A DNA stretch of 29,389 bases from a virus: positions 1-29,389 of the IMG/VR virus record IMGVR_UViG_3300042502_000163; one strand, given 5' to 3'. Below, one piece after another: positions 182 to 25,477 of this stretch. The notes beneath the pieces were generated by a model. That model was not told the DNA's origin and did no database searches. It worked only from the letters and a program-made list of their open reading frames with translations. Position 1 is the first letter of the stretch. Each line of letters starts with the position of its first letter. The translations under genes and the position numbers were made by a program.

Positions 182-213
182 CAAACAAAACCCTTTAGAA
201 TAACATTATAGTT
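182..213 (+). promoter_or_regulatory. late two-part signal, copy 1 (before the tape measure gene)
   Basis: CAAACA at 182-187, 16 bases, CATTATAG at 204-211, TT, then ATG at 214. The same parts at the same spacing precede the starts at 3919, 6474 and 25478. There is no Shine-Dalgarno box. It could be a phage-specific promoter whose transcript starts close to the ATG, or less likely a translation signal. Confidence 0.55.
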
Positions 214-2193
214 ATGGCAAACAATCCCGTAGAGATACCAATAAAGTTAAACGGACTAGGACAAATAAAGTCTGAGTTAAGAGCGTTAAAAGGAGAATTA
301 GCAAGTGCTACCGACCCCAAGCAAATGGCAGAACTCGCAGAAAAAGCGGGAGAACTTAGCGACAGATTAAAAGACGCAAACGAGAAAGTTGCGGTTTTTG
401 CTAGTGGTTCTAAATTCGAGCAAACATCAAACGCTTTCGGGTTAATGAAATCACAGTTAATGGACATGGATTTCGAAGGTGCTGCGGAATCGGCTAAGAT
501 GTTTTCCTCTACGTTAACTTCAATCTCGCCTAAGGCAATCGGTGCGCAGTTAAAAGGTCTTGTTTCTGTTGTTGGTACGTTAGGGAAAGCGTTCATGACT
601 TTCGGTATGCAGTTACTTTTAAACCCTATCTTTCTTTTGATTGTCGTTATTACTGCGATAGTTGCAGCGGTCATTTGGTTTGCACACAAAATGGGGTGGC
701 TAGCTAAAATCTTCAAGGTAGTTAAAGATGCTTTACAACCTTTGATTGATGCGATTAAATGGTTTTTAGATTTGATTGGTTTGACTAACTACGCACAGGA
801 AGAACGAACTGCAAAAGCGTTAGAGGGCTACAAGAAAGAGAAGGAAGCGATGGAGAAAATCGGTCATCAAATAGACAATAAAATCTTGCTACTTGAAGCC
901 GAAGGAAAATCTACCCTAGCCCTACGAATCGAAAAGAATAAAATGTTTTTAGCGGATGCCAAAGCAAATGCAGAAGCAATGAAAGCCATGACTAGCATGA
1001 TGGATTCTAGTTCTACAATGGGCAAGGCTTACGGAGATTTAACACAAACCGCAGACGATACTTTTGTACAACTTAAAGCCGAAGAGATAAAACTAACTCA
1101 AGAGGTAAAAGCTGAAAACAAGAAACGTGCGGATGACAATAAAGCATATCAAAAAGATAGACTAGATGCACAACGTTTAATTAGAGACTTGACCGTTGCT
1201 CAAATGGAAGAGGGAATAAACAAAGAATTAGAACTAAACAAAATCAAATATCAACGTTTAATTGTTGACACTAACGCTAACGAGAAATACACCGCAAATG
1301 AAAAGTTGAAAATTAACGCATTGTATGCTGAACAACAACGAATCGAAGCATTAAAGTTGTATCAAAAACAAGCGGATGAATTACAAGCAAGCATTAAAGC
1401 ACATGACCAAAAAGTACTAGAAGAAAAAAAGAAACTTGAAGAGGAGGAAAAATTAAGATTAGCAGAGCAACAAAAGCTAGCATCTGAAACTTTAGGAACT
1501 GAGCAAAGCAGAGAACTAGATAAACTGAAAGAAGAATACGCTGCTAAGTATTTACTAGCAAAAGATAACTTTGCTTTGACATATGCTTTAACGGAAGAGG
1601 AGAAAAAGAAACAAGCAGAAATCAATGAACGTTACCGACTAGCGGAGATTGAAAAAGAGCAAGCGTTGAGAGATGCTAAAATCTCTTTTGTAGGTCAAAC
1701 TGTTGAGGGTATCGGAGAACTTGGTAAGCTATTCATAAACGACCAAAAGAAACTCGAGAAAGTAAATAAAGCGATGGCGTTAGTTCAAATAGGAATTGAT
1801 ACGGCTAAAGCGATTTCTGCATTAGTTGCTACTGCTCAAGCTAACCCATTAAACTCATTAACGTTTGGTGGTGCGGGACTTGCTCAATACGCTTCGGGTA
1901 TTATTCAAATCATTACAAACATCGCAAAGGCTAAAGCATTACTATCAAATCCTAGCGCATCTGTAAGCGGTGGTAGTTCAGGAGGTGGCGGTGGTGCAAG
2001 TGGTGGCGGTACAAATGCCGAAGCTATGCAACCTCAATTTAATATGTTTGGCTCTGCGGGTAACGCTAACACAATCAACGCAAGCGGACAACCGAATAGT
2101 AATAACATCACAGTAACTGCTGTGGTATCTGAGACCGAGATAACAAGTACTCAAAATAACATCAACCGAATTAAAGAATCCGCTTCTCTATAA
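214..2193 (+). CDS. tape measure protein
   Basis: The 659 aa protein fits a siphovirus tape measure protein, which sets tail length and is chaperoned during tail assembly. The N-terminal 60 residues are an amphipathic start with many charged heptads. A hydrophobic stretch at about residues 133-157 could be a membrane-penetrating segment. A long Lys/Glu/Ala-rich coiled coil covers roughly 190-480. A further Ala/Gly-rich hydrophobic region lies near 515-570, followed by a Gly/Ser-rich linker near 580-600. By the usual rule of about 1.5 angstrom per residue the tail would be near 100 nm. It lies between the tail-tip genes and a gp10-like gene whose ATG overlaps its stop. The start is supported by the late signal directly upstream. 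This length is short for the family but common in 30 kb phages. Confidence 0.85.
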   Translation: MANNPVEIPIKLNGLGQIKSELRALKGELASATDPKQMAELAEKAGELSDRLKDANEKVAVFASGSKFEQTSNAFGLMKSQLMDMDFEGAAESAKMFSSTLTSISPKAIGAQLKGLVSVVGTLGKAFMTFGMQLLLNPIFLLIVVITAIVAAVIWFAHKMGWLAKIFKVVKDALQPLIDAIKWFLDLIGLTNYAQEERTAKALEGYKKEKEAMEKIGHQIDNKILLLEAEGKSTLALRIEKNKMFLADAKANAEAMKAMTSMMDSSSTMGKAYGDLTQTADDTFVQLKAEEIKLTQEVKAENKKRADDNKAYQKDRLDAQRLIRDLTVAQMEEGINKELELNKIKYQRLIVDTNANEKYTANEKLKINALYAEQQRIEALKLYQKQADELQASIKAHDQKVLEEKKKLEEEEKLRLAEQQKLASETLGTEQSRELDKLKEEYAAKYLLAKDNFALTYALTEEEKKKQAEINERYRLAEIEKEQALRDAKISFVGQTVEGIGELGKLFINDQKKLEKVNKAMALVQIGIDTAKAISALVATAQANPLNSLTFGGAGLAQYASGIIQIITNIAKAKALLSNPSASVSGGSSGGGGGASGGGTNAEAMQPQFNMFGSAGNANTINASGQPNSNNITVTAVVSETEITSTQNNINRIKESASL

Positions 2194-2618
2194 TGGCTAC
2201 ATTCAAGGTAAAATACGCAACAAGAAACAAACTAGCAAAGGCTTTACAACAAGAAGTAAGGAAACTTGGCTTAGTTGATACGGGAGCGTTGTACGATTCA
2301 ATACGAATATCTGCAATGACAGGAGACGAGTTCAATAGAATTGATATAACCGTAAACGCGTTGTACTATTATTTCTTTTTAGATGAGGGAACTATTTACA
2401 TTGACCCGTACAATATAACGGATGCTTGGCTAGCTAGTTCAAAAGTTCAAAATATTATTAGTGAGATAGTACAAGAATACATTCAATGGCAGTTTGAGAA
2501 ATACCCACTTTTAGAAATGGCTAGAATCTTAAACAACCCTAGAGTATTTGTTAGCTTTAATTGGATTGATGAACAAGCACTACCGTACAAACTACCGAAA
2601 CGAAATATACAGAATTAA
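2193..2618 (+). CDS. HK97 gp10-like tail completion/neck protein
   Basis: The 141 aa protein carries the GLVDTGALYDSI segment near residues 25-37, the signature-like part of HK97 gp10-type proteins that connect or complete the tail at the neck. A second conserved-looking part is the YYYFFLDEGT stretch at about 58-67, where gp10 proteins often have a Y/F-rich strand and an EyGT-like turn. The ATG overlaps the tape measure stop by one base (taATG), implying coupled translation. Its TAA at 2616-2618 is interleaved with the TAA of the opposing minus-strand gene. The family is recognised from motif and position; the exact role is inferred. Confidence 0.7.
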   Translation: MATFKVKYATRNKLAKALQQEVRKLGLVDTGALYDSIRISAMTGDEFNRIDITVNALYYYFFLDEGTIYIDPYNITDAWLASSKVQNIISEIVQEYIQWQFEKYPLLEMARILNNPRVFVSFNWIDEQALPYKLPKRNIQN

Positions 2619-3340
2619 GTTTCTGTGTCTTTCTTCATGGATAGCATATTAAAGGCAAAGATTAAATTCATGCCTAAGACCTTTTCCATGTTTGTGATAT
2701 CTTCGTTTGCTAGTATGTAGATTGTTTTTTCCCAAGCCCATTTCGACATCTTCATTTCTGCTTCTAGTTCTTTACGGTCTTCGGGTTCGACTTCTTGTAA
2801 ATCCTCTTCTGTAATCGGTTCGTCAAATAGATTTGAATAGGTGTTTAGAAAGTTTTCTCGCCATTGTAGATAAGATGTAACAACACCGTAAACAGAATTA
2901 ATTGATAGGTTTAGAAATTCTTTAGAGCGTTCTTCTAAATCGTATTCGTGTGGCTCATAAGATAAATGCTTCCACTCATCAACTCGTGTTTGCTTGTAAA
3001 GGATAGCGCAAATAATCGGTAAGTATTCGATATAGTCTTTTGTAACGTAGTACTCTAAATCTAGAAACTCCTCTACCTTAATTTTGTTTAGTGGTTTAAG
3101 TTGATATTCAAGAATTGATTGTGCTGGCATTTTGTTAGGCTCAGATTGCACGAAAGAAATCCTAGCAAGGAGCGTGCTAAATTCGTCAAGTTCTAAATCT
3201 TCAAGGTCTTCGGTAGGTACATCAGCAAGAACTCCTAAGAGTTCAAGCTGACTTTCAAAGTTAGAATCCATGTTTACTGATTTTCTAGCTTCGATGTACT
3301 GTGCTACCGTTACATCATTCCACGACTTCGGTAACTTCAT
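2615..3340 (-). CDS. probable tail assembly chaperone-like protein (second of a paralogous pair)
   Basis: A 241 aa acidic, helical protein without signal peptide or membrane segment. It starts with a short KLPKSWNDVTVAQYIEA-type segment, then LELLGVLADVP, then an EF(S/L)-rich helix, a KPLNKIKVEEFLDLEYY strand-helix and a conserved-looking SINSVYGVVTSYLQW part. Proteins of this build are common beside tail genes in Bacteroidota phages. The position next to the tape measure is where tail assembly chaperones (the gpG/gpGT role) are found. It overlaps the upstream gene by 26 bases in a different frame, and its ATG lies inside that gene. The chaperone role is inferred from context only; no activity motif is visible. 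Confidence 0.55.
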   Translation of the reverse strand: MKLPKSWNDVTVAQYIEARKSVNMDSNFESQLELLGVLADVPTEDLEDLELDEFSTLLARISFVQSEPNKMPAQSILEYQLKPLNKIKVEEFLDLEYYVTKDYIEYLPIICAILYKQTRVDEWKHLSYEPHEYDLEERSKEFLNLSINSVYGVVTSYLQWRENFLNTYSNLFDEPITEEDLQEVEPEDRKELEAEMKMSKWAWEKTIYILANEDITNMEKVLGMNLIFAFNMLSMKKDTET

Positions 3341-3857
3341 TTTGAGAGATTAGTTTACGAGATACTGCAACAACGTAAGGCACGACCAACGTAGCACTCA
3401 AATCTTTAAACAACTTTTCCTTGTGTTTAAGATGTGCGTTTTCGTAGTGTTCTGCGTTGGTTAAATCGGTGCGCTTAAATATGATTGCCATTAAACGAGC
3501 AAAGTAGTTAGTATTGTCTTTACCCATTGCTTTCTCTATCATTTTCAAATCACGAACTTTCAACTTAAACTCATCCTCATACGCTCGGTATGTGTAACCA
3601 TCTAACTCAAATTCTTGAGTCATTTCAATATCGTTAATCGCTTGTGTATCGTTAAACAATTTCACGTAATCAATGAACTCCTGAAACTCCATGTCATTTA
3701 CCTCAGAAGATGGAACGCCCAAGAAGATAAACAAGTCTGCCCACTTCTCAAATTTATCTAGTTCTTCATCGTTTAGAATCTTACTTACTTTCTCGAATTG
3801 GTCAAGCGTCAACTCTGCGATGTCGTTATTAATTTGATAACCTCTAATTTCTACCAT
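3315..3857 (-). CDS. probable tail assembly chaperone-like protein (first of a paralogous pair)
   Basis: A 180 aa acidic, helical protein. Its parts follow the same order as in the next gene: a LTLDQFEKVSKIL start helix, ADLFIFLGVPSSEV, an acidic EFQEFIDYVKLF helix, FKLKVRDLKMIEKAM, FARLMAIIFKRTDL, and a final ATLVVPYVVAVSRKLI helix. The match suggests a remote tandem duplication. This gene and the next are the only minus-strand genes in the genome. They have their own host-type promoter about 15-45 bases upstream. The tail chaperone role is inferred from position between capsid and tape measure genes. The ATG at 3857 is the first after that promoter. Confidence 0.55.
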   Translation of the reverse strand: MVEIRGYQINNDIAELTLDQFEKVSKILNDEELDKFEKWADLFIFLGVPSSEVNDMEFQEFIDYVKLFNDTQAINDIEMTQEFELDGYTYRAYEDEFKLKVRDLKMIEKAMGKDNTNYFARLMAIIFKRTDLTNAEHYENAHLKHKEKLFKDLSATLVVPYVVAVSRKLISQNEVTEVVE

Positions 3858-3870
3858 AGTAATTTTTTTT

Positions 3871-3901
3871 CAAATATACAAATTTTTGAACACTTGACAA
3901 A
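3871..3901 (-). promoter_or_regulatory. Bacteroidota-type promoter for the minus-strand pair
   Basis: Read on the minus strand, TTTG (3901-3898), a 19-base spacer and TATATTTG (3878-3871) match the -33 TTTG and -7 TAnnTTTG elements of Bacteroidota primary-sigma promoters. Transcription would start near 3866, about ten bases before the ATG at 3857. The -33 part lies inside the divergent late signal at 3887-3918. Confidence 0.7.
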
Positions 3902-3918
3902 TAGTTTTCATTATTGTT
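3887..3918 (+). promoter_or_regulatory. late two-part signal, copy 2 (before the protease gene)
   Basis: TGAACA at 3887-3892, 16 bases, CATTATTG at 3909-3916, TT, then ATG at 3919. It differs from copies 3 and 4 at one base in each element. It overlaps the minus-strand host-type promoter. Confidence 0.5.
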
Positions 3919-4887
3919 ATGGCAAATGATTTACCTATTTATAAAATCACTATTGACGAGGAATATTCTGAGGGCAACGCTTTAGGAATAGAGCAAGTAG
4001 CATTCACTGCTAAGCCTGCGATTATGGTTAAGGGTATGGCATTTTCTAGTACACAATCGTTTGAGTTTAAAGATGAACCTAAGATGAGAATCGTAGCACC
4101 TGCCATGATTCCAATGGATATCTACAGAAATGACGATGGAGAAGAGTACTACGTACAATTTACAGAAGCTGAGATTGAAAATATATTCTCAGACTTTATG
4201 CAGAACCTAAACAATAAAGACCTTTTTAACTTAGAGCATGACGCTGGGGAAACAGTACCCGCTTACATTCTTGAAGCGTGGCTAGTTGAAAATCCTAAAG
4301 TAGATAAAGCGTTTACATCTTATGGTATTGAAGTACCTAAAGGGACATTGATGCTAACGGCTCAAGTAACTGATTCAAAGTACTATGAGCAACTAGTTAA
4401 AAAAGGTCAAGTAGGCTTCAGTATCGAAGGATTCTTGGGTCTTAAATTATCGCAATTAAAAACCAAATATAGTATGAAGTTACCCGATGGAGAACATCTA
4501 ATCGAAGGCAAAATCTACATTGTAACAGATGGCGAGATTGTTGAAGTGAAAGATGCACCTGTTGAGGAAGCAATGTCAACTGAAGAGGCAGTAGTCGAAG
4601 AAGAAGTGACAATGGCAACCGAAACAGAAGAAGAGGTAGTAACCGAAGAAGAAGTTGTAGAAGAAGAAGTGGCAATGGCAGTTGATGCTACCGCAGACGC
4701 TGAAGCAGTTTTGGCTATCGTTACACCAATCTTAGACGAGCGAATCAACGAAGTATTGCAGTTGATAGCAGAGATTAAAAACATGATGCCTATTGTAGAA
4801 GAGGTGGAAGTGGAAGAAGAAATTGCAATGCGCAAATTATCAGTAAATGAGCGATTCACAGCGTTCAGAGAAACATTTAAAAAATAA
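3919..4887 (+). CDS. XkdF-like prohead protease with C-terminal scaffold-like region
   Basis: The 322 aa protein has an N-terminal domain (about 1-190) like the XkdF group of phage capsid serine proteases. His107 sits in NLEHDAG and Ser168 in GQVGFSIEGF, the expected His and Ser parts of such an active site, and the EAWLVENPKVDKAF and PKGTLMLTAQV segments are typical. Residues about 215-300 are very acidic and helical, and the end (KLSVNERFTAF) may be a capsid-binding tip, so the protein may be protease and scaffold in one chain. Three acidic repeats of the type EEE(V/I)(T/A)M begin at residues 227, 248 and 299 and could be self-cleavage sites. It lies six bases before the major capsid gene. 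The protease call is good; the scaffold call is inferred. Confidence 0.8.
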   Translation: MANDLPIYKITIDEEYSEGNALGIEQVAFTAKPAIMVKGMAFSSTQSFEFKDEPKMRIVAPAMIPMDIYRNDDGEEYYVQFTEAEIENIFSDFMQNLNNKDLFNLEHDAGETVPAYILEAWLVENPKVDKAFTSYGIEVPKGTLMLTAQVTDSKYYEQLVKKGQVGFSIEGFLGLKLSQLKTKYSMKLPDGEHLIEGKIYIVTDGEIVEVKDAPVEEAMSTEEAVVEEEVTMATETEEEVVTEEEVVEEEVAMAVDATADAEAVLAIVTPILDERINEVLQLIAEIKNMMPIVEEVEVEEEIAMRKLSVNERFTAFRETFKK

Positions 4888-4892
4888 TAAAA

Positions 4893-5810
4893 ATGGAAAG
4901 AAATTTAAAATTTAATTTGGACATCGAAACAAATGCTTTGTTGTGTCCTAACCCTAACGAGTTCTATTCTCGTGCTTACCTTACAGAAGACTTAGTAGAT
5001 AACTATCGCACTTTGCCAGGTATCAAATCAGAAACAAAATTAGCAAACGTTACTTTTGGAAACATCTTACAAGCATCTACTTGTAACTTCTCAGCACCTA
5101 CTGACAACCTAGATGCAATTGACATTACAGTATGTCCTTTGTCTGCAATGGCTCAACTTTGCCAATTCGACTTAGAGCAGTCATTTTTATCTTTGCAGAT
5201 GGCTCAAGGTTCAAATGGAGACTTTACAGTTGCTTCATTCATGAACTACTATTGGAATGAGATGTCAATGCAAATCCAAGAAGATTTAGAGTTGATTCGT
5301 TGGCAAGGAGACACAGGAAGCGGAGACGATACTTTAGCTTTGTGTGATGGTTACATCAAAAAGTTATTAGCTGACGCTGGAGTTGTTGATGTTGCAAATG
5401 TTGCTATTACTTCTTCAAACGTTATAGCACAATTAACTGCAATTTTGAACGCTGCACCTGCATCAATCAAACGTAAAAAAGCAGACTTACGTTTCTACGT
5501 TTCTTCAAACATTGCTACTGCTTATGAATTAGCTGCTGCAACGGGTAACACTCAAACATACGTTACGCTTCCTTTAGCTTTGACTTTCTTAGGAATTAAG
5601 ATGGTAGTTGCTGAGGGTATGCCAAACGATACTGCGGTCTTGACTTTGAAAAATAACCTTATCTATGCATTCGATGCAGAAGGAGATTCAAGAGCATTGA
5701 AAGCGGTTAACTTGAATGATTCAGTTGCTGAGCCATATTTGAGAACTCGTGCTAACTTGAAAGTTGGATTTGCTTACACGAACCCTACAGAAATCGTTCT
5801 TTACTCTTAA
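4893..5810 (+). CDS. major capsid protein (HK97 fold)
   Basis: The 305 aa protein directly follows the protease/scaffold gene and is followed at once by a strong terminator, the usual setting of the highly expressed major capsid gene. It has no membrane or signal segment. A helical region with EMSMQIQEDLELIRWQGD near 120-140 resembles the spine helix region of HK97-type capsid proteins. The end (RTRANLKVGFAYTNPTEIVLY) resembles the P-domain and C-terminal strand of capsid proteins of phages in this phylum. Codon use here is among the least A+T-biased in the window, as expected for an abundant protein. The start is the ATG after an A-rich stretch without Shine-Dalgarno box. Confidence 0.85.
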   Translation: MERNLKFNLDIETNALLCPNPNEFYSRAYLTEDLVDNYRTLPGIKSETKLANVTFGNILQASTCNFSAPTDNLDAIDITVCPLSAMAQLCQFDLEQSFLSLQMAQGSNGDFTVASFMNYYWNEMSMQIQEDLELIRWQGDTGSGDDTLALCDGYIKKLLADAGVVDVANVAITSSNVIAQLTAILNAAPASIKRKKADLRFYVSSNIATAYELAAATGNTQTYVTLPLALTFLGIKMVVAEGMPNDTAVLTLKNNLIYAFDAEGDSRALKAVNLNDSVAEPYLRTRANLKVGFAYTNPTEIVLYS

Positions 5811-5831
5811 TAAGAACTAATACTAACTAAG

Positions 5832-5862
5832 AAGGGTGGTGCAATATACACCGCCCTTTTTT
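5832..5862 (+). terminator. rho-independent terminator after the major capsid gene
   Basis: A 10-pair stem (5832-5841 with 5849-5858, one G-U pair), a 7-base loop and six T at 5857-5862. It lies 21 bases after the capsid stop and probably limits readthrough into the tail tube gene. Confidence 0.9.
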
Positions 5863-5875
5863 AATATAAAAATAT

Positions 5876-6405: not shown

Positions 6406-6442
6406 AGAAGCCCTCATCTTAATTGGTGGGGGTTTTCTTTTT
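6406..6442 (+). terminator. probable terminator after the tail tube gene
   Basis: GAAGCCCTCA around 6407-6416 can pair with the TGGGGG and TTTTC stretch at 6426-6437, with one bulge and G-U pairs, followed by T-rich sequence. It is weaker than the hairpin at 5832. It directly precedes the late signal at 6442. Confidence 0.65.
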
Positions 6443-6473
6443 AAACAACTTTCACTTTTCAATCATTATAGTT
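6442..6473 (+). promoter_or_regulatory. late two-part signal, copy 3 (before the connector/portal genes)
   Basis: TAAACA at 6442-6447, 16 bases, CATTATAG at 6464-6471, TT, then ATG at 6474. It matches copy 4 in both elements and in spacing. Confidence 0.6.
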
Positions 6474-6809: not shown

Positions 6810-8129
6810 ATGAAATTATTCGGTTTTAACATTGGTAGTAGTAAAGCTATCGAATCAGTAGAAACAAGTGGCTATCAAGCCTTCTCTACACCATTTCTAA
6901 AAGTTGGTAGTGGGAATCTATCTTTGCCTTATGTAAACGGTAGACAACAAGTAAACGGTAGAATTAGATTTGGAGAGGATGACCTTTATCCGCAAATGAT
7001 TAACCAACTTTATTATACATCGCCTTTGCATTCGTCAATTGTTGACTTTAAAACTAACGCAACAATCGGTGGTGGTTATGACATCAAGATTAAAGACTTA
7101 AATGCAGTTGAAAAGGTAGATGTTTACGCCTTTGAAAAGCGACTAAGCCTAAAGAAATCTATAAACAAAATAACAAAAGACGTTATTCTACACAACCGAG
7201 TTTATTTTTACTTGAAATTTAACCAAAGTGGGGAACTTGTAAAGGTAAAACATATCGGAGCGGAGAAAGTGAGACGTGATAAGCTAGGAGAAAACTACTA
7301 TTTATGTGATGATTGGTACTCTCAAATCAATATTGTAACGATTAAACCATATCACAGAACGTGTAAAGACTTAGAACAGTTGTACGTTTGGGAAAATCTA
7401 CAAGTAGGACAAGATATTTACCCATTACCTAGCTACACAAGTGCATTTAATTGGGCTTTCTTAGATGGCGAAATGTCGTATTTGCAGAAGTCTAACATCT
7501 TAAATAGTATATTCCCTTCATTTGCTATGATGTTCCCTAAGAAGCCACAAAGCGAGGAAGAGAAAAGAGCGATTAAGGACACAATGGAACGTGCAAAGGG
7601 AGCGCACAATGCTGGTAAAGGCGTTGCATTCTTTGCTAACAATAAAGAAAGTCTACCAACAATAGAAAGCATACCAACTAATAACCTAGACAACGTCTTT
7701 CAGGTAACTACTGAGAGCATAGATTCTAAGATTTGTCAAGCACATACTATCGACCCAATCTTAATGGGTATTCGTGTAAGCGGTAAACTTGGAAGCGGTT
7801 CAGATATCAAACAAGCGTATATCATTTTTGAGAAAAATACGATTATTCCTTTGCGTGAAACAATTGCGGATATCGTAAACGACTTATTCGAGATTGCTAA
7901 AGTAAAAGCACGTGTCGAAATCAATAACTACCAAATAGTTAATGAGACAATCGTAGAAATCGAAGGAGATGCAAGTATGACATCTGATGCATTGAACGCT
8001 ATGTCTCCATTGGTAGCAAATAAAGTACTTGAATCAATGACAGACAACGAGATTCGTGCGCTTGCTTCATTACCTCCTGTTGAGGGTGGCGATTTAATTA
8101 AGTCTCAAACACCAACTCCTACGCTATGA
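6810..8129 (+). CDS. portal protein
   Basis: The 439 aa protein forms the dodecameric DNA gate of the head. The layout is typical of SPP1/PBSX-like portals: a wing region starting with FGEDDLYPQMINQLYYTSPLHSSIV (about 54-78), a mixed core, a helical stem region near SGSDIKQAYIIFEKNTIIPLRETI (about 330-353), and a C-terminal crown-like helix ending EIRALASLPPV. Length and order fit. It starts directly after the TAA of the small protein gene, and its end overlaps the next gene by four bases (ATGA), so the connector genes are probably translated in a coupled way. It is separated from the terminase by the whole tail-tip and capsid region, which is not the usual order. Confidence 0.85.
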   Translation: MKLFGFNIGSSKAIESVETSGYQAFSTPFLKVGSGNLSLPYVNGRQQVNGRIRFGEDDLYPQMINQLYYTSPLHSSIVDFKTNATIGGGYDIKIKDLNAVEKVDVYAFEKRLSLKKSINKITKDVILHNRVYFYLKFNQSGELVKVKHIGAEKVRRDKLGENYYLCDDWYSQINIVTIKPYHRTCKDLEQLYVWENLQVGQDIYPLPSYTSAFNWAFLDGEMSYLQKSNILNSIFPSFAMMFPKKPQSEEEKRAIKDTMERAKGAHNAGKGVAFFANNKESLPTIESIPTNNLDNVFQVTTESIDSKICQAHTIDPILMGIRVSGKLGSGSDIKQAYIIFEKNTIIPLRETIADIVNDLFEIAKVKARVEINNYQIVNETIVEIEGDASMTSDALNAMSPLVANKVLESMTDNEIRALASLPPVEGGDLIKSQTPTPTL

Positions 8130-18410: not shown

Positions 18411-18414
18411 AATT

Positions 18415-19593
18415 ATGAAGACAATAAAATTAGAATCTAAAATTGTCAATGATAAATATACTGAATATGTATACGAATCATTTGACATACAAAATAAAGA
18501 AAATACAATTGTAGAAATACCTATGAATTTTGGTGAATGCAAAACGTTTGATTGGAATATAGGAGTTATTTATGGTGGTTCTGGTACAGGTAAAACTACT
18601 TTATTAAAAGAATTTGGTAAGTTAACTAAAATTGAATTTGATTTTGATAAAGCATTAATATCTAATTTTGATTGGTTAGAACCAAATGAAGCCACAATGT
18701 TATTAAGTTCAATTGGTTTATCTTCTGTACCCACTTGGTTGCGTCCATTTCACACATTAAGTAATGGTGAACAATATAGAGCGGAGTTAGCGTATAAAAT
18801 TGGTAAAGCAAAAGAAAATGAAGTTGTGTTAATCGATGAATATACATCAGTAGTGGATAGAGACGTTGCAAAATCTATGTCTTTTGCACTACAAAAATAT
18901 ATTAAGAAATTTAATAAAAAAATTGTTTTAGCTTCATGTCATTTTGATATCATGGAATGGTTGATGCCAGATTGGACTTATTCACCATTAAAAGGGCGTG
19001 TTGAAAAACACGAATATGCCAGGCGAAACAGACCAACAATTGAACTTTCGATATTTCGATGTAGATATGAAACTTGGAAAATTTTCAAACAACATCATTA
19101 CATGAGTCAAGATTTAAATAAAGCAGCAAAATGTTTTGTTTTATTATTAAATGACAAACCTGTAGGTTTTATAGCTATTTTGCCTTTTCCTCATGGAAAT
19201 ATAAAGAATGGTTTTAGGATATCTAGAGTTGTTGTGTTACCTGATTATCAAGGTTTATCAATTGGTTTCACTATAATTGATTATTTTGCGTCTATTTACA
19301 AAGCAGATAATAAGAATATGTATATAAAAACTTCTAATCCAGCTTTATTTGTAGTAATGGATAAAAATAAACATAAATGGAAATTTACAAATGAAGTAAA
19401 AAAAGAACAATTAAATTCAGAATGGATGTTGAAACAACAAAATTCAGATAAAAGTGGAATGTTAAAAATGAGAAATGCCATAACTAAATCTTTTAAATAT
19501 ATTGGAGAGCCTTCAATTTGTTCTACTGATATAATTACTTTTAATGCTGATGCTTGGAAAGAAGTTGCACAAAATCAAATAAGTTTATTTTAA
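18415..19593 (+). CDS. ABC-type ATPase fused to a GNAT (Mom-like?) acyltransferase domain
   Basis: The 392 aa protein has two domains. Residues about 45-185 are a compact ABC ATPase: Walker A GGSGTGKT (Gly54-Thr61, Lys60), signature LSNGEQYR (115-122), Walker B VVLIDE with Glu142, D-loop VVDRD, and switch His176. No Q-loop is evident. Residues about 205-325 form a GNAT-type domain: KQHHYMS (225-231), FVLLLNDKPVGFIAIL, and the acetyl-CoA motif VVLPDYQGLSIG (273-284, with Ser282 replacing the usual Gly). Phage Mu Mom, which modifies adenine in DNA, is a GNAT-fold protein and also has an HHY-like segment, so DNA modification is a possible role. The gene is markedly A+T-rich compared with its neighbours, suggesting acquisition. 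Target and cofactor are unknown. Confidence 0.75.
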   Translation: MKTIKLESKIVNDKYTEYVYESFDIQNKENTIVEIPMNFGECKTFDWNIGVIYGGSGTGKTTLLKEFGKLTKIEFDFDKALISNFDWLEPNEATMLLSSIGLSSVPTWLRPFHTLSNGEQYRAELAYKIGKAKENEVVLIDEYTSVVDRDVAKSMSFALQKYIKKFNKKIVLASCHFDIMEWLMPDWTYSPLKGRVEKHEYARRNRPTIELSIFRCRYETWKIFKQHHYMSQDLNKAAKCFVLLLNDKPVGFIAILPFPHGNIKNGFRISRVVVLPDYQGLSIGFTIIDYFASIYKADNKNMYIKTSNPALFVVMDKNKHKWKFTNEVKKEQLNSEWMLKQQNSDKSGMLKMRNAITKSFKYIGEPSICSTDIITFNADAWKEVAQNQISLF

Positions 19594-19603
19594 AAAAAAA
19601 ACT

Positions 19604-20008
19604 ATGAAACAGTACAATATTTTAGGAGGTGTTGATATAATTTCTAATTTAGAAGAACATCCACAATTTAAAGAAAAAGTAATTAATCCAGATAAATATT
19701 ACGGAAGCGATTTAAATAAATTAGTTGCTAAAGATTGTAGAAAAGATATGATGGTAATGAATATTGATTTAATCATAAACGACTATAATCAGAATAAATT
19801 AAAAATTGTTGAATCAAAACATTCAAGAGAACAATTAGGCAAGGGTCAACATTTACTATTGAAAAAATTAGCACAAATGGGAATTGATACATACGTGGTT
19901 TATGGAGATGAGCCATATACAAATTCAAGAGTTTATTCTTATAAAACAAATAGAGAAAAAATAATGAATAAACAAGAATTAATTAATTTTTTAAATAATA
20001 CAAAATGA
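19604..20008 (+). CDS. small PD-(D/E)XK (VRR-NUC-like) nuclease
   Basis: In the 134 aa protein Asp55 (MNIDLIIND), Glu70-x-Lys72 (KIVESKH) and Gln82 in a KGQHLLLKKL helix form the core of PD-(D/E)XK nucleases. The GIDTYVVYGD strand follows, as in VRR-NUC and Holliday-resolvase-like proteins. It has no separate DNA-binding domain. It follows the ABC-ATPase/GNAT gene by ten bases and shares its low G+C, so the two probably arrived and act together. It overlaps the helicase-like gene by four bases. Alternatives are a structure-specific nuclease in replication, or a nuclease that targets unmodified DNA. The fold is fairly clear; the role is not. Confidence 0.65.
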   Translation: MKQYNILGGVDIISNLEEHPQFKEKVINPDKYYGSDLNKLVAKDCRKDMMVMNIDLIINDYNQNKLKIVESKHSREQLGKGQHLLLKKLAQMGIDTYVVYGDEPYTNSRVYSYKTNREKIMNKQELINFLNNTK

Positions 20009-20907
20009 TAGTTAACCACAGAAGTAGTGATGAGTTTCTCGAATTATCTAGGTTAGATAAAATACCTCTTGGTTTAGGTCTTGGAATTGATTTGGATATA
20101 AATCTACGATTTAAACGAGCATCGTTTAACATCGTTTTAGGACACGCAAACGTTGGTAAAACCTATTGGGTTCTTTGGTATCTTTTAGCGTTAGCACACA
20201 AGCACAATCTTAAACATCTTATTTATTCAGCTGAGAACTCAGTAAATGGATTGAAACGTAATCTTATTGAGTTGTATGCTGGGTGCAAAATTAAAGACAT
20301 GAAATCTAAACAACTTGAAAACTGCAAAGCATTTATAGAATCTCATTTTGATTTTATTGATGCACAAAAGGCTTGGACTATTGAAGACTTTATGAAAGAA
20401 GTTCAAGTACTAGGTAGTTATGATACATTAATGATTGACCCACATAACTCATTTTTAAAGCCTAAATTTGCAAACGCTCACGAATTAGATTATGAGATGG
20501 CAACGAAGCTAAGATTGTTTGCCAAAAAAACGAATACTTCGATTTATATGTGTACACACGCAGCAACAGAAGCACTTCGTAAGACTCACAAAGATGGAGA
20601 GTTTAACGGTATGCCTCAAGCACCAAACATGGCAGATGCTGAGGGCGGTGGTAAATGGGGAAATAGAGCAGATGATTTTATTGTAATACATAGATACCCA
20701 ATGCACTCAACAATGTGGATGTATACAGAAGTTCACATGAAGAAAATCAAAGAAACTGAGACAGGTGGTAAACCTACAATCTTGACAGAACCGATTTTAT
20801 TTAAATTAGAAAACGGAACGGGTTTTAGTTGTGCTGGTAAGAATCCATTGAAAGATGAAACAAAACAATCTGAATCAATTAAAAACTTTGATAACTTGCC
20901 TTTTTAA
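20005..20907 (+). CDS. SF4 (DnaB/gp4-like) helicase ATPase domain
   Basis: The 300 aa protein has RecA-type parts: Walker A GHANVGKT (46-53), the catalytic Glu77 in LIYSAEN, Walker B TLMIDPHN (Asp145), and a TSIYMCTHAATEALRK segment (about 177-192) like motif H3. The region ADAEGGGKWGNRADDFIVIHRY near 210-231 resembles the DnaB/KaiC/T7 gp4 C-terminal ATPase. The helicase N-terminal domain is missing, so it may be an isolated motor or loader. The end is SIKNFDNLPF, resembling the SSB-type acidic tail. It lies with other replication genes. Confidence 0.75.
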   Translation: MIVNHRSSDEFLELSRLDKIPLGLGLGIDLDINLRFKRASFNIVLGHANVGKTYWVLWYLLALAHKHNLKHLIYSAENSVNGLKRNLIELYAGCKIKDMKSKQLENCKAFIESHFDFIDAQKAWTIEDFMKEVQVLGSYDTLMIDPHNSFLKPKFANAHELDYEMATKLRLFAKKTNTSIYMCTHAATEALRKTHKDGEFNGMPQAPNMADAEGGGKWGNRADDFIVIHRYPMHSTMWMYTEVHMKKIKETETGGKPTILTEPILFKLENGTGFSCAGKNPLKDETKQSESIKNFDNLPF

Positions 20908-20916
20908 ATACGAACT

Positions 20917-21204
20917 ATGAAACATAAAAGCACCGCATTAAGTCTAACACTAGCACGAATCAATATCGGCTTAGTGATTAACAAACTTATCGTAAGACAA
21001 AAACACGCTTCTACAAGCGATAAACAACGTGAAGGCATACAAACTATGCTTGATGACCTACAAAGTGCGTTAGAAGTGCTAAAAAGCGTATCTAAAGAGA
21101 ATGAACAGATGTATAGATTAAACTATTCTTTGCATATTGAAAACATGAAGCTAAAAAAGCAACTATATGAAGCAACCAAAACAGAAGAAATGCAAGAACT
21201 GTAA
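20917..21204 (+). CDS. coiled-coil early protein, function unknown
   Basis: The 95 aa protein starts MKHKSTALSLTLARINIGL. Residues about 45-95 are a Lys/Glu/Leu-rich helix (TMLDDLQSALEVLKSVSKEN and on) likely to form a coiled coil. It lies ten bases after the helicase gene and overlaps ninG by 38 bases. A partner or loader role for the neighbouring replication proteins is possible, but no family is recognised. Confidence 0.6.
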   Translation: MKHKSTALSLTLARINIGLVINKLIVRQKHASTSDKQREGIQTMLDDLQSALEVLKSVSKENEQMYRLNYSLHIENMKLKKQLYEATKTEEMQEL

Positions 21205-21724
21205 ACAACCATTCACACCGATACGTTCAACGCTTGAGAAGTACTGCAAAGAATCTGAATGTGTTCGTGTTTGGGTAGCGATTGAAAAAGAAAAGGCTTG
21301 GAAAAAGACGAAAGCAGTAAAAAAAGCTGAGTTGATGACCGTACAAGATTATATCAAGATAGCGCAACAGGTGTTTAACAAGTACATTCGACTACGAGAT
21401 GAGGGTAGCGTGTGTATTAGTTGTCAAAAGCCATCAAAAAAAGAAAACGCTGGGCATTTTTTTAACGCTAACAATCATTGGAATGTGAGATTTGATGAAG
21501 ATAACGTGCATCTACAGTGCGAGCATTGCAATACGTTCTTGAGCGGTAACCTTTTGGAGTATCAAGGTCATCTAATTAAAAAGCTAGGACAAGAAAAATA
21601 CGATGCACTTGTAGAGCGAGCGAGAAAAACACGTAAATTTACAATCGAAGAACTAAAGGAAATAATAGAAACCTATAAACAAAAAATAAAAGAGCATGAA
21701 GGAATTAGAAGAAGTATGGAGTAA
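21167..21724 (+). CDS. ninG: NinG/Rap-like recombination endonuclease
   Basis: In the 185 aa protein CKNC at 9-12 and Cys27/Cys32 form a first zinc knuckle, followed by a Lys-rich helix. CISC at 83-86, AGHFF (His97), WNVRFDEDNVHLQCEHCN (Cys118, Cys121) and a C-terminal YDALVERARKT helix match lambda NinG (Rap), a Holliday-junction and D-loop endonuclease. HNH-like fold residues include His97. The length is close to the family. The start at 21167 is inside the preceding gene, consistent with translational coupling. Confidence 0.85.
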   Translation: MKQPKQKKCKNCKQPFTPIRSTLEKYCKESECVRVWVAIEKEKAWKKTKAVKKAELMTVQDYIKIAQQVFNKYIRLRDEGSVCISCQKPSKKENAGHFFNANNHWNVRFDEDNVHLQCEHCNTFLSGNLLEYQGHLIKKLGQEKYDALVERARKTRKFTIEELKEIIETYKQKIKEHEGIRRSME

Positions 21725-21878
21725 AGTTCCTGACAAATTAAAAGAATCTGATTTATATTGTTTTTATGTAAGTGATAGTTATAAAAATGTGCCTGAAACG
21801 TATAAGTCAAAAAAAGTTATTGTACTTTACCCATTGCCAAAAGATTGCGTTTATTATGCGCCAAAAATGTTTGAATAA
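21696..21878 (+). CDS. small protein, function unknown
   Basis: The 60 aa protein starts MKELEEVWSKVPDKLKESD and has several Tyr and aromatic residues (YVSDSYKNVPETYK, CVYYAPKMF). It overlaps ninG by 29 bases. The 3' part is A+T-rich. No family is recognised. Confidence 0.55.
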   Translation: MKELEEVWSKVPDKLKESDLYCFYVSDSYKNVPETYKSKKVIVLYPLPKDCVYYAPKMFE

Positions 21879-21905
21879 AATTAATAAATAAAAAATAAAA
21901 TAAAC

Positions 21906-22037
21906 ATGGATTTTATATTAGGATTAATAGCAGGAATTACAGTTACATTAGGAATATGTATAGGCTTATTCAAAGAGTTTAAGAAAGCACTAAAAGATTT
22001 TGACACATGGAAAGAATGGAAAAACAAACAGCAGTAG
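21906..22037 (+). CDS. 43 aa single-helix membrane protein
   Basis: ATG at 21906 to TAG at 22035-22037. Residues 3-20 (FILGLIAGITVTLGICIG) form one clear membrane helix, followed by a Lys-rich cytoplasmic end (FKEFKKALKDFDTW). It overlaps the next gene by 31 bases. It may be an accessory membrane protein. The supporting signs are frame, hydrophobic pattern and tight packing. Confidence 0.55.
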   Translation: MDFILGLIAGITVTLGICIGLFKEFKKALKDFDTWKEWKNKQQ

Positions 22038-22222
22038 AATGGTTAGTAAGTCATTTAAACAAACAAGGATTTGCACAAGTTGTAACAGATGAGGAAATTA
22101 AACAAGCTAAAGAAATGGAGAAAGAGCATATTGAAGATGCTTATATCATAGGATATACAAATTGTGAGGTAGGCATAAAGTGTAGAAATCAATACTACAA
22201 CGAAACCTTTAAATCAGAATAA
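22007..22222 (+). CDS. small acidic helical protein, function unknown
   Basis: The 71 aa protein starts MERMEKQTAVEWLVSHLNK, with a second ATG at 22016. The form (QTAVEWL near the start, then EIKQAKEMEKEHI and ahelix ending YYNETF) is common for small phage proteins in Bacteroidota and has a Cys-containing centre (YTNCEVGIKC). No function is known to me. It overlaps the membrane protein gene and lies one base before the next small gene. Confidence 0.65.
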   Translation: MERMEKQTAVEWLVSHLNKQGFAQVVTDEEIKQAKEMEKEHIEDAYIIGYTNCEVGIKCRNQYYNETFKSE

Positions 22223-22223
22223 G

Positions 22224-22361
22224 ATGAAAGCAACACGAGAACGAAGAGCAAAGAAGTTGATTAAGCGAGATTGGATGCATCGAACAAATATGAATAAGCG
22301 TGATTATTTAATATGGAAACGCATAGAAAACGAATCAGTAAACAACGAGGAAGGAGATTAA
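22224..22361 (+). CDS. 45 aa very basic protein, function unknown
   Basis: ATG at 22224 to TAA at 22359-22361. The 45 aa protein is very rich in Lys and Arg (starts MKATRERRAKKLIKRDWM) and has a short acidic end (EEGD). It may bind nucleic acid. It starts one base after the previous stop. A host-type promoter starts directly after it. Confidence 0.5.
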   Translation: MKATRERRAKKLIKRDWMHRTNMNKRDYLIWKRIENESVNNEEGD

Positions 22362-22363
22362 AA

Positions 22364-22394
22364 TTTGGTTGATTAGAATTTAATTGTATATTTG
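22364..22394 (+). promoter_or_regulatory. Bacteroidota-type promoter before the sigma-like/terminase region
   Basis: TTTG at 22364-22367, a 19-base spacer and TATATTTG at 22387-22394. Start of transcription would be near 22398, about ten bases before the ATG at 22409. It would drive the sigma-like gene and may read into the terminase genes. Confidence 0.7.
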
Positions 22395-22408
22395 ACTAAA
22401 ATTTAATC

Positions 22409-22657
22409 ATGGAATTACTCTTACTCGTATCTTTTGCTTGGTGGTTTACTAACTTCGAACCGCTTCAAACTGCATTAGATTACATATTTACAAGGTTACC
22501 CATTAATCGTTACACAGTGATAGTTCATACTTCACTTGGATGCATTAAGTGCGTTGCTTTTTGGTCTTCATTGTTAATTAGTGGAGACTTTTTTATTGCT
22601 ACCCTATCCTCATTAACCGCTTATCTTTTAAAATTATGTTTGGACAAGATGAACTAG
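22409..22657 (+). CDS. small membrane protein with CIKC motif
   Basis: The 82 aa protein has hydrophobic parts at about 1-14 and 43-74 (GCIKCVAFWSSLLISGDFF, then IATLSSLTAYLLKLCL). The CxxC followed by FW resembles small membrane proteins common in Bacteroidota phages. It could be a membrane modifier of the host or a lysis-related protein, though far from the lysis module. It is the first gene of a unit with a host-type promoter, and its end overlaps the next gene by 22 bases. Confidence 0.6.
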   Translation: MELLLLVSFAWWFTNFEPLQTALDYIFTRLPINRYTVIVHTSLGCIKCVAFWSSLLISGDFFIATLSSLTAYLLKLCLDKMN

Positions 22658-22842
22658 AATACATCGAAAGCCTAAAGGATGCCAACGAATCAACGCGTAC
22701 GGCAAAAGTTACGTTGAACAGGCTTAAGGCTATAAAAACACGAATCACAAACGAAGTAGACAAAGAATGTTTCTGCTCAAGTGTTAGAAGAAAGATATGG
22801 TACAAGAACTTTATGGAATGGTATGAAAGCACTACTAGATAA
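22636..22842 (+). CDS. conserved-type small protein (EYIESLKDANESTRTAKVTL...)
   Basis: The 68 aa, basic helical protein has EYIESLKDANESTRTAKVTL, LKAIKTRI, DKECFCSSVRRKIWYKNFMEWYE. I recall nearly the same pattern in many Bacteroidota phages next to sigma-like genes and terminases. The CFC plus aromatic end might bind metal or a protein partner. No function is known. It overlaps the previous gene by 22 bases and the next by 20. Confidence 0.7.
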   Translation: MFGQDELEYIESLKDANESTRTAKVTLNRLKAIKTRITNEVDKECFCSSVRRKIWYKNFMEWYESTTR

Positions 22843-23356
22843 CTATATCCAACATAACTACAAAGAGGTAAACAGATACGCTAATTACTTCTTACATCGT
22901 TTAAAGTCAAAATTAGACGCTGACACGGTTATAAATAACGCGTATCTACGAACACTTCAATACAAAGGGGTAATAGTCGAACAGTATGAAGCAAAAGCCT
23001 TGTTATTTGAATCCATCAAAGCGGAAGTACTTTGGAATAGCGAGAGCAAAAAGGAGATTATCAACTCAGTAGAGAGTGATTACATTCCAGAGGTGGAAGA
23101 TACCGACCTAGCCGAGAAGATTCTACTTGAACTACGATACAACGAACAAAAGAACATCGTTGAAATATACCGCAGTCAAATCAATGACCGAGTAAAGTTG
23201 TATTTCTTTCAGGCGTACTACGATAAAGGTATTTGCACCACGAGAAAAATTGCTGAACACTTCAATATATCTACGGCTTCGGCTCATTTGTTGATAGTAG
23301 AAATGAAAGAGGATATTAGAAGGTTTGAAAACACGAGTAAAGTAAACGCATTATAA
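22823..23356 (+). CDS. sigma-factor-like HTH protein, candidate late regulator
   Basis: A 177 aa protein from ATG 22823, inside the end of the previous gene; an earlier start at 22781 is less likely. Residues about 10-70 are helical with some likeness to sigma region 2 (YANYFLHRLKSKLDADTVINNAYLRTL). Residues about 105-168 resemble region 4, with a helix-turn-helix CTTRKIAEHFNISTASAHLLI and a basic last helix (MKEDIRRFEN). ECF-like sigma or related regulators of this size occur before terminase genes in Bacteroidota phages. The four late genes use a non-host-type upstream signal, so a late sigma role is plausible but unproven. Confidence 0.55.
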   Translation: MKALLDNYIQHNYKEVNRYANYFLHRLKSKLDADTVINNAYLRTLQYKGVIVEQYEAKALLFESIKAEVLWNSESKKEIINSVESDYIPEVEDTDLAEKILLELRYNEQKNIVEIYRSQINDRVKLYFFQAYYDKGICTTRKIAEHFNISTASAHLLIVEMKEDIRRFENTSKVNAL

Positions 23357-23358
23357 CT
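23328..23358 (+). promoter_or_regulatory. weak fifth copy of the late signal (before the terminase operon)
   Basis: AAAACA at 23328-23333, 15 bases, CATTATAA at 23349-23356, CT, then ATG at 23359. The order and the distance to the ATG fit the other four copies, but the spacer is one base shorter and two bases differ. It overlaps the end of the sigma-like gene. Confidence 0.35.
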
Positions 23359-23517
23359 ATGAGTAAGTACATTTTAACGATAGCCTACATTCTATTCTTG
23401 GGGTATGCAATGGGTTTAATTTACAACTACGAAAACACAAATAAAATACTAGGTATAGGAATAATCACTTACTTAGTAGGTTCACTTATAAACCAATTAG
23501 AAGAACATGAAGATTAA
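23359..23517 (+). CDS. 52 aa two-helix membrane protein
   Basis: ATG 23359 to TAA 23515-23517. Two hydrophobic stretches lie at about 4-22 (YILTIAYILFLGYAMGLIY) and 31-44 (LGIGIITYLVGSLI), with an acidic end (EEHED). It directly follows the sigma-like gene by two bases and overlaps the next gene by 11. Function is unknown; it looks like a small membrane protein. Confidence 0.55.
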   Translation: MSKYILTIAYILFLGYAMGLIYNYENTNKILGIGIITYLVGSLINQLEEHED

Positions 23518-23737
23518 AGAACAATGGAAGGGTAAAACGCTAGTAAGTTACGACCCAATACTAGGAGAGCGCAGAATCGAAGTAGATAAAATCCAACCAA
23601 AGAACGAGAAGCGCATTAGAAAAATGGGATACGATTATATCTTTGACGATGAAGTAGAGATTAAACCAATTGCATTTGAAGGAATAGAACAACCGATAGT
23701 AAAGAAACCTAGAAAAAAACGAACCCCAACAAAATGA
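23507..23737 (+). CDS. small phage protein, function unknown
   Basis: The 76 aa protein starts MKIKEQWKGKTLVSYDPI and has KIQPKNEKRIRKMGYDYIFDD-like basic and acidic parts, then a strongly basic end (VKKPRKKRTPTK). It may bind DNA or a capsid/terminase partner, as it lies just before the terminase. It overlaps both neighbours by small amounts. No family is recognised. Confidence 0.6.
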   Translation: MKIKEQWKGKTLVSYDPILGERRIEVDKIQPKNEKRIRKMGYDYIFDDEVEIKPIAFEGIEQPIVKKPRKKRTPTK

Positions 23738-23904
23738 ACAATAGCTACCAAATTATAGCAATACTTATTAGAACGGTAGAAGATTACATACTACAAAAGA
23801 AAAACGTAAGGGTAAAGATAGACCCTATACAGATAATAACAAACCAAGACCAACTAAACAAGTTAATAGACGCTTATAACTACATAGAAAATGGGAAAGC
23901 ATAA
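23734..23904 (+). CDS. 56 aa small protein, function unknown
   Basis: ATG 23734 (overlapping the previous stop by four bases) to TAA 23902-23904. The 56 aa protein has an N-terminal hydrophobic/amphipathic helix (YQIIAILIRTVEDYIL), then a basic part and a strand-helix end (TNQDQLNKLIDAYNYIENGK). It overlaps the terminase small subunit gene by 14 bases. No motif is recognised. Confidence 0.5.
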   Translation: MNNSYQIIAILIRTVEDYILQKKNVRVKIDPIQIITNQDQLNKLIDAYNYIENGKA

Positions 23905-24328
23905 AACAATAGAGACACCCGAACAAATGTGGGAACTCTTCGAAGCATATAAGAAGACAGTATCAAAGAACCCAATCTTAATACAGGACTATGTAGGTAA
24001 GGATGGACAAATGGTGTATAGAGAGAGACAACGACCTCTAACGATGGAAGGGTTCGAAAATTACTGCGAGGATAACATTTGTTACGTACATCAATATTTC
24101 GTTAATCAAGAACAGAGATATGGCGATTATGTGAACATCTGCTCGCGTATTAGAAGAACAATTCGTCAAGACCAAATCGAAGGTGGCATGGCATCAATTT
24201 ATAACCCAAGCATCACACAACGACTAAACAACCTAACCGAGAAAACGGATGTAACAAGTAACGGTAAAGAGTTAAACGAAATTAAGATAACGATAGTAGG
24301 TGGAGATTCAAGTAACGAAAATATTTGA
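23891..24328 (+). CDS. terS: terminase small subunit
   Basis: The 145 aa protein starts MGKHKTIETPEQMWELFEAYKK. A helical N-terminal part, RQRPLTMEGFENYCEDNI (about 47-65), YVNICSRIRRTIRQDQIEGGMASIYNPSITQRLNNL (in two stretches) and an acidic/hydrophobic end fit the terminase small subunits (DNA-packaging protein, P22 gp3-like) seen in Bacteroidota phages. It binds phage DNA at the packaging start and guides the large subunit. Its end overlaps the large subunit gene by 29 bases, which supports the call. Confidence 0.85.
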   Translation: MGKHKTIETPEQMWELFEAYKKTVSKNPILIQDYVGKDGQMVYRERQRPLTMEGFENYCEDNICYVHQYFVNQEQRYGDYVNICSRIRRTIRQDQIEGGMASIYNPSITQRLNNLTEKTDVTSNGKELNEIKITIVGGDSSNENI

Positions 24329-25448
24329 TAAGAACTTCAAGGCTCTAAACTCAGATAAGCGGTTCATAATTAATCAAGGTGGTTCTAGGTCAAGTAAGAC
24401 CTATTCACTTTGTCAGCTTATAATCGTTTGGTGTTTACAGAATCCGAATAAGGTAGTATCAATTGTGCGTAAGACATTCCCAGCTTTACGTGCTACGGTA
24501 ATGCGTGATTTCTTCGAGGTGCTTAAAGACTTGGAACTATACGAGAAAGCAAGCCATAATATGAGTGAGAACATCTACCGATTCGATAACGGTTCGATAG
24601 TAGAGTTCTTCTCAGTAGATGACGAGCAAAAGATACGAGGGCGCAAGCGAGATATCGGATGGTGTAACGAAGCAAATGAGTTGTGGTTCGATGACTTTCA
24701 GCAGTTGAACATGAGAACGGAATCTAAGTTAATCTTTGACTATAACCCATCAGAAAGTAGCGGATGGCTATATGAACTACCCGAAGCCGAAAGCGTCTTA
24801 ATCAAGTCAACCTATAAAGACAATCCTTTTCTTCCCGAATCAATAAAGAGACAGATAGAAGATTTAAAAAGAACAGATGAGGCACTCTATCAAATCTACG
24901 CATTAGGAGAGAAGGCAGTCAGTAAGTCAAACATATACACGAATTGGACATTTGTACAACATCGCCCTTCAAAGTTTACGCAATACGTTTACGGGCTTGA
25001 CTTTGGATTTAATCACCCGACTGCATTGATACGTGTCTATTGGCATGAGAAAGATATCTACATTGAACCCGTTGTTTATGAATCGTATTTAACGACAAGC
25101 GACCTAATAGAACGATTTAACAGTCTAGGTATTGATAAGAGTATAGACATACTAGCAGATTACTCAAGACCTGAAATTATAGCAGAGATGCAAATAGCTG
25201 GCTACAACGTCAACAACGCTAACAAGGTAGTAAAGAAAGGAATTGATAACGTAAAGACCTTTGGTGTAATGTGTCAAGATGACCCACGCATGAAGAAGGA
25301 GTACGATAACTACAAATGGAAAAAGATAGGCGATACAATAACGGATGAACCTGTAAAGCTATTCGATGACGCTATGGATGCAATACGATACGCAACTACG
25401 TTTATTAAGGGGATGTACTTTAGTGACGATGGCTACATAGCCTTCTAA
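24300..25448 (+). CDS. terL: terminase large subunit
   Basis: The 382 aa protein has an ATPase with Walker A-like GGSRSSKT (27-34, Lys33) and Walker B with Glu124 (IGWCNEANEL), followed by a YNPSESSGWLYE linker. The RNase-H-type nuclease part has Asp234 (YGLDFGFNHPTAL) and Asp287 (ILADYSRPE), with a third acid probably in LFDDAMDAIRYA near the end. It packages DNA into the prohead and cuts it. It is a little short but has all parts. The GTG start at 24300 is needed, as no early ATG exists. Its order after terS is classic. Confidence 0.9.
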   Translation: MEIQVTKIFDKNFKALNSDKRFIINQGGSRSSKTYSLCQLIIVWCLQNPNKVVSIVRKTFPALRATVMRDFFEVLKDLELYEKASHNMSENIYRFDNGSIVEFFSVDDEQKIRGRKRDIGWCNEANELWFDDFQQLNMRTESKLIFDYNPSESSGWLYELPEAESVLIKSTYKDNPFLPESIKRQIEDLKRTDEALYQIYALGEKAVSKSNIYTNWTFVQHRPSKFTQYVYGLDFGFNHPTALIRVYWHEKDIYIEPVVYESYLTTSDLIERFNSLGIDKSIDILADYSRPEIIAEMQIAGYNVNNANKVVKKGIDNVKTFGVMCQDDPRMKKEYDNYKWKKIGDTITDEPVKLFDDAMDAIRYATTFIKGMYFSDDGYIAF

Positions 25449-25477
25449 ACATTGACGAGAATTTAATCATTATAGAT
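25446..25477 (+). promoter_or_regulatory. late two-part signal, copy 4 (before the tail-tip genes)
   Basis: TAAACA at 25446-25451 (overlapping the terL stop), 16 bases, CATTATAG at 25468-25475, AT, then ATG at 25478. Confidence 0.6.

Follow-up and report, generated by a model that had tools for sequence, protein, structure and literature searches.

A conserved two-part signal before phage late genes and its candidate reader, a predicted, diverged ECF-like sigma factor encoded next to the terminase genes

How does a phage mark its late genes when they share a start signal that differs from the promoters of its probable host? The question is raised by IMG/VR virus record IMGVR_UViG_3300042502_000163, a single sequence of 29389 bases, which was analysed whole and is called the window below. 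A preliminary description of this DNA had reported a two-part signal of fixed spacing, AACA-N16-CATTATWG-NN-ATG, before four plus-strand late genes, 'late' being assigned here by what the genes encode (units for protease, capsid, portal, tail and terminase). Every base and coordinate of these four sites proved exact (late promoters 1 to 4 in Table 1; genes are named by their start positions), but a fifth copy, before gene 23359, had been overlooked. We propose that the signal is very probably a late-gene promoter read by a diverged sigma factor of the extracytoplasmic function (ECF) type, encoded by the phage itself at 22823-23356.

The full pattern, YRAACA-N16-CATTATWG-NN-ATG, matches four times on the plus strand of the window with identical spacing, and the bases between the blocks are not conserved, the four spacers being unrelated in sequence. 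It has no match on the minus strand of the window, a control with the reversed pattern has none in the window either, and AACA-N16-CATTAT occurs on either window strand at these four places exclusively. All patterns composed of a 4-mer, a gap of 10-20 and a 6-mer were counted at the same distance from ATG and compared with 300 first-order Markov shuffles. The late signal, with four copies, was the commonest of all patterns enumerated, while the best pattern of any kind had two copies in 290 shuffles, one in nine and three in a single shuffle. The four-copy signal exceeds chance even when the search over patterns is allowed for. The AACA of the fifth copy starts at 23330, within the 3' coding end of a sigma-like gene; this copy is kept in close relatives and occupies the same place in distant ones. 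The units that carry the signal are thus five: terminase, tail, 214, capsid and portal.

Conservation of the signal was assessed in relatives found by a portal protein search of IMG/VR, from which the best 80 of 511 related stretches were used. The 20 genome-scale relatives fetched (27-32 kb) are syntenic and cut at differing points. Regions upstream of orthologs keep the two-block signal, and the letters of both blocks drift together: the first block appears as TAAACA, ATAACA or AAAACAC and the second as CATTATAG, CAATATAG, TATTATAA or TAATATAG. De novo expectation-maximization (EM) from random starts, on the upstream regions of the five late units with the window and its nearest relative excluded, gave TAAAACAC-N14-aYAWTATAR, that is AACA-N16-YAWTATAR in 72% and AACA-N15-YAWTATAR in 23%, with a log-likelihood of 295 against 51 for shuffled input. 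Scanning the genome and its relatives with a weight matrix had been suggested as a check, and a matrix trained on relatives only, which also provides the ranks and bit scores of Table 1, gives the five window sites its highest ranks when both strands are scanned. All five lie 2 bases 5' of a start codon. A sixth window match, antisense and intragenic, equals the fifth-ranked site at 13.8 bits, where chance would be expected to give 0.4 matches above 13 bits per genome.

Matrices were also trained with one late unit left out at a time. Median scores were 13-16 bits for the held-out units and about -4 for the 209 upstream regions that served as controls, and the area under the receiver operating characteristic curve was 0.87-0.99. 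This agreement among non-homologous late units goes beyond common descent. The procedure replaced matrices built from a single late unit (6474 or 3919), which had caught the terminator hairpin or divergent host promoter present there and failed to generalise. Over 21 genomes, in a count that is descriptive since most of them contributed to matrix training, the matrix matches the late strand 105 times and the opposite strand 5 times; 94 of the 105 stand no more than 40 nt from an ATG. The phage-specific late promoter class first suggested from the window is strongly supported: the signal is kept before the same five late units in some 20 related genomes, emerges de novo and carries over between units. 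In a scan of IMG/VR with the exact pattern, independent of any protein, 108 of the 115 newly fetched loci among the matches listed carry core genes of the window-phage family. Three contigs have the exact pattern before an open reading frame (ORF) of 416 amino acids and no recognisable core gene of that family; they perhaps represent a further phage group with the same signal.

Which protein, then, reads the signal? The product of gene 22823 is the likely reader. Its gene lies just upstream of the terminase genes. It was found in 29 of the 33 related records, and of the four without it three are contigs shorter than 24 kb. The AlphaFold model contains helices at residues 2-26, 33-45 and 54-72, then a disordered linker and helices at 94-119, 123-134, 140-147 and 151-176; its predicted local distance difference test (pLDDT) values are about 90 in both parts and low in the linker (residues 75-90). 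This predicted fold presents the two-domain ECF layout of sigma-2, linker and sigma-4 without sigma-1.1 or sigma-3. Foldseek comparison with the PDB retrieves mainly sigma factors, many of them ECF, with Mycobacterium tuberculosis SigL, AlgU and SigH among the first, and single sigma-4 domains superpose at about 3 A. Among viral models, the second match is annotated as sigma-70 region 2 and many further ones as ECF or RpoE-like. In sequence, the NCBIfam sigma70-ECF entry (TIGR02937) matches nine of 25 family members (best E 2.3e-5), and the window protein itself reaches E 0.0058, under the cut-off, with TIGR02985. A PF04542 search of the family had no matches, PDB sequence searches with the protein or its profiles returned nothing useful, and searches with the protein in annotated phages and in GTDB genomes each gave none. 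The AAC-containing -35 element and spacer of about 16 bases of ECF promoters correspond to the AACA-N16 or AACA-N15 of the de novo motif. Membership of the protein in the ECF family is therefore supported by its predicted fold together with weak sequence evidence.

The strongest outside support for a pairing of sigma gene and two-part signal is provided, by analogy, by a cultured phage, P12024S (NC_018271.1), of a Persicivirga/Nonlabens host, whose portal protein is about 25% identical to that of the window. In P12024S a gene at 20595-21074, shortly before the large terminase gene, matches PF04542 above the cut-off; its annotation goes no further than a hypothetical protein with sigma-70 region 2. 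Sites of the form AACA-N15/16-CGTTAMTA are found at 147, 2999, 5380, 23930, 25169 and 26770, all on the late strand and all six exactly 4 bases before an annotated start, where 0.2 would be expected by chance. The Nonlabens phages P12024S and P12024L thus resemble the window phage in that a gene with sigma-70 region 2 precedes the terminase and the portal is distantly related, and P12024S also in its two-part AACA-N15/16 signals close before late ATGs. They differ from it in the -10 element (CGTTAATA), in a genome of 35.7 kb and in a sigma protein that is not confidently alignable with that of the window. A differing second block would be expected if the sigma of each phage has its own preference. 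The window phage and P12024S, otherwise distant, also share a mosaic gene, window 18439-19190, encoding a protein of the ATPase/acetyltransferase type, with 78% DNA identity over 750 bases.

The signal differs from the promoters of the presumed host group. In Flavobacterium these consist of TTTG and TAHHTTTG, 4-5 nt from the transcript start (PMC6847099). There are just two complete TTTG-N17-21-TAHHTTTG sites in the window, and the -7 element TAHHTTTG of Bacteroidota primary-sigma promoters is found in none of the five late sites. One of the two lies upstream of the operon containing the sigma-like gene, and a -7 element of the TATATTTG type stands before that gene in most relatives. Sites of the ordinary sigma-70 consensus are no more frequent in the window than in shuffles.

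Computation establishes the signal with its regulon, spacing and conservation, and also that the sigma-like gene accompanies it and where that gene lies; the sigma fold is predicted. In the time order that we infer, host RNA polymerase with its own Bacteroidota-type sigma would transcribe the early and middle units, among them the operon 22409/22636/22823, whose 22823 product would then displace the host sigma on the core enzyme, its sigma-4 domain binding AACA as the -35 element and its sigma-2 domain binding YAWTATAR as the -10 element, with 15-16 bases between them, and would bring the enzyme to the five late promoters at which the late units start. Since the sigma gene contains late promoter 5 in its 3' end, the terminase unit could be switched independently of the sigma operon. 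As a matter of speculation, late initiation at promoter 2 could also shut off the leftward genes, through overlap with their promoter at 3901-3871.

Several observations weigh against this proposal. In one relative, the fourth of the records without a detected sigma-like gene, the signals are nonetheless present; its contig is cut close to the locus. The window protein scores above none of the Pfam or NCBIfam sigma cut-offs; the genuine phiEco32 gp36 likewise falls under that of TIGR02937. The Foldseek E-values against the PDB are above 0.001 and full-length TM-scores only 0.3-0.4, which is attributable to the uncertain domain arrangement. Profile-profile comparisons are weak both with a shallow three-sequence ECF alignment that includes gp36 (P 0.059) and with P12024S gp33 (P 0.017). 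The p-values of the leave-one-unit-out analysis are made too optimistic by the kinship of the genomes, near relatives not being independent samples.

Could the signal act in translation instead? It does stand 2-3 bases before ATG at most sites, and the preliminary description left such a role open. A role as a translation-initiation signal, or an origin as a copied gene start, is nevertheless barely credible, and we rejected both because the spacers are unrelated among sites and because the 15-16 base internal spacing holds when the ATG moves: in seven related genomes the ATG lies 10-15 nt beyond the signal and the spacer is still 16. Together with the position of the fifth copy inside an upstream coding end, this argues for a promoter and not a ribosome signal. 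We know of no ribosomal factor that reads a fixed-spacing block some 26-30 nt upstream. The Kozak-like A that Flavobacterium is known to have at -3 (PMC6847099) is no fixed part of the signal.

If the signal is a promoter, its reader might still come from the host. Late promoters might be read by host polymerase with a host alternative (ECF) sigma, the 22823 protein being an activator of the RinA/ArpU kind or having another role. ECF factors are numerous in hosts of the Bacteroidota phylum, ECF promoters in general typically contain AAC in the -35 element, and TIGR01636 (RinA/ArpU) is weakly matched by a few 22823-family members (best 0.0043). The same family, however, has a predicted sigma-2 domain, the 22823 protein has both predicted sigma domains, and the lineage has kept gene and signal together. 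Moreover, 30 genomes related to a metagenome-assembled genome (MAG) that holds a relative of the phage contain a single match to the late motif, though these may not be hosts. We consider this arrangement improbable, and rate still lower, as very unlikely, one in which only the -10-like part is recognised by the host holoenzyme, the AACA block being occupied by a DNA-binding activator that the phage encodes. Our own comparison with the published consensus (PMC6847099) does show YAWTATAR overlaying TAHHTTTG, with A-11, T-7 and often G-5 shared. Against this, the host-invariant T-8 and T-6 are A in nearly all late sites, a complete host-type element is in use elsewhere in the same genomes, and the fixed spacing of 15-16 nt is that of a sigma-2/sigma-4 pair.

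A late promoter read by the phage sigma would have a further consequence. With YAWTATAR at -12 to -5, +1 would fall within one or two bases of the ATG and late mRNAs would therefore be leaderless or nearly so, as had been surmised at the outset. Standard promoter geometry makes plausible a transcript start on the ATG, or no more than a few bases from it, for most late genes, a reading limited by the several relatives with the same signal 10-15 nt 5' of the ATG. The stronger statement, that AUG stands at or next to the 5' end of late mRNAs and that these are translated without a leader, in a phylum without Shine-Dalgarno sites and with mostly leadered mRNAs, is offered tentatively, at somewhat less than an even chance. 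Flavobacterium mRNAs, by comparison, are mostly leadered, with leaders of more than 10 nt on 87% of transcripts (PMC6847099). If true, early and late genes would differ both in the mode of transcription and in the mode of translation.

The setting of these features is as follows. Window positions 1-127 are an exact 127-bp direct repeat of 29263-29389 at the other end, and the genes left open at the two ends, 26908- on the right and -180 on the left, are identical in sequence, so that gene 26908 runs across the junction to 180. From these matching ends we take the window to be a complete genome of about 29.26 kb, circular or permuted. It belongs to an uncultured aquatic phage, probably of Flavobacterium-like bacteria. 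Shine-Dalgarno-like sequences are absent before the 30 window starts checked, as expected with a Bacteroidota host. A TerL search of GTDB genomes led to one contig (JAIXRY010000011.1, 29629 bp), inside a pond MAG; it encodes a close TerL relative and resembles a relative phage genome. The contig is probably mis-binned, since the relatives of its MAG are genomes of 0.4-1.0 Mb. The two leftward genes of Table 1 are kept in relatives, and P12024S likewise has leftward genes just 5' of several of its late promoters.

Table 1. Positions of the signals and genes discussed, in window coordinates
Feature	Position	Strand	Description
Late promoter 1	182..213	+	-35-like CAAACA (182-187), N16, -10-like CATTATAG (204-211); gene 214-2193; rank 3, 14.6 bits
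Late promoter 2	3887..3918	+	TGAACA, N16, CATTATTG (3909-3916); gene 3919-4887 (prohead protease-like) and capsid unit; rank 2, 14.9 bits
Late promoter 3	6442..6473	+	TAAACA, N16, CATTATAG (6464-6471); gene 6474 and portal; rank 1, 17.3 bits
Late promoter 4	25446..25477	+	TAAACA, N16, CATTATAG (25468-25475); gene 25478; tied rank 5, 13.8 bits
Late promoter 5	23328..23358	+	AAAACA (23328-23333), N15, CATTATAA (23349-23356), CT, ATG; gene 23359 and terminase unit; rank 4, 14.3 bits
Predicted phage ECF-like sigma factor, 177 aa	22823..23356	+	mechanical ORF start GTG 22781; homologs favour ATG 22823
Host-type promoter TTTG-N19-TATATTTG	22364..22394	+	upstream of the 22409/22636/22823 operon with the sigma-like gene
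Host-type promoter TTTG-N19-TATATTTG	3871..3901	-	two leftward genes; overlaps late promoter 2; CAAATATA kept in relatives
Terminator-like hairpin and T run	6407..6436	+	closes capsid unit directly before late promoter 3; equivalent hairpins in relatives
Terminase small subunit	23891-24328	+	unit behind late promoter 5
Terminase large subunit	24300-25448	+	unit behind late promoter 5
Head protein (phrog_1623 virion structural protein)	4893..5810	+	unit behind late promoter 2
Portal protein	6810..8129	+	unit behind late promoter 3
Two leftward genes	2615-3340, 3315-3857	-	one with weak tail-assembly-chaperone match

The analysis defines a regulon of five units and a candidate regulator that standard annotation had overlooked, and the same layout in a second, cultured phage, P12024S, makes the switch directly testable. 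The sigma factor and its promoters are a candidate orthogonal pair for Bacteroidota, and the signal is a signature by which late units may be located in uncultured phage genomes. The open-access literature searched holds no description of late-gene control in Bacteroidota phages, and within the literature searched, outside which most subscription journals lie, we found no account of a phage-encoded late sigma in Bacteroidota phages of such a size.

How, finally, does the system compare with known ones? T4 gp55, like the proposed window sigma, is a phage sigma that turns the host polymerase to late genes. T4 late promoters have a -10-like element only and need a co-activator and clamp, whereas those of the window have two blocks at fixed spacing. 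The Bacteroidota host promoter TTTG/TAHHTTTG shares with the late signal its two elements, but both blocks differ and the spacer is of 19 bases in the two full window copies. Phage sigma factors with late promoters of their own are known from phiEco32, whose gp36 is named a phage sigma (PMC5312081), and from phage 7-11 (PMC4331800, PMC5312081). The hosts of both are proteobacterial and no direct sequence match to the window sigma-like family was found. Like the protein proposed here, gp36 is a small, phage-encoded ECF-type sigma that takes the host core enzyme to promoters of structural and packaging genes, while early genes have host-type promoters (PMC4331800). The phiEco32 promoter is one compact element, tAATGTAtA / TGATGT (PMC4331800), in contrast to AACA-N16-YAWTATAR abutting the ATG, and no such core was present in the de novo motif. 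A switch through a phage-encoded ECF-like sigma factor would thus be of a known kind, exemplified by phiEco32 and T4, while the protein family and the promoter class appear to be new.

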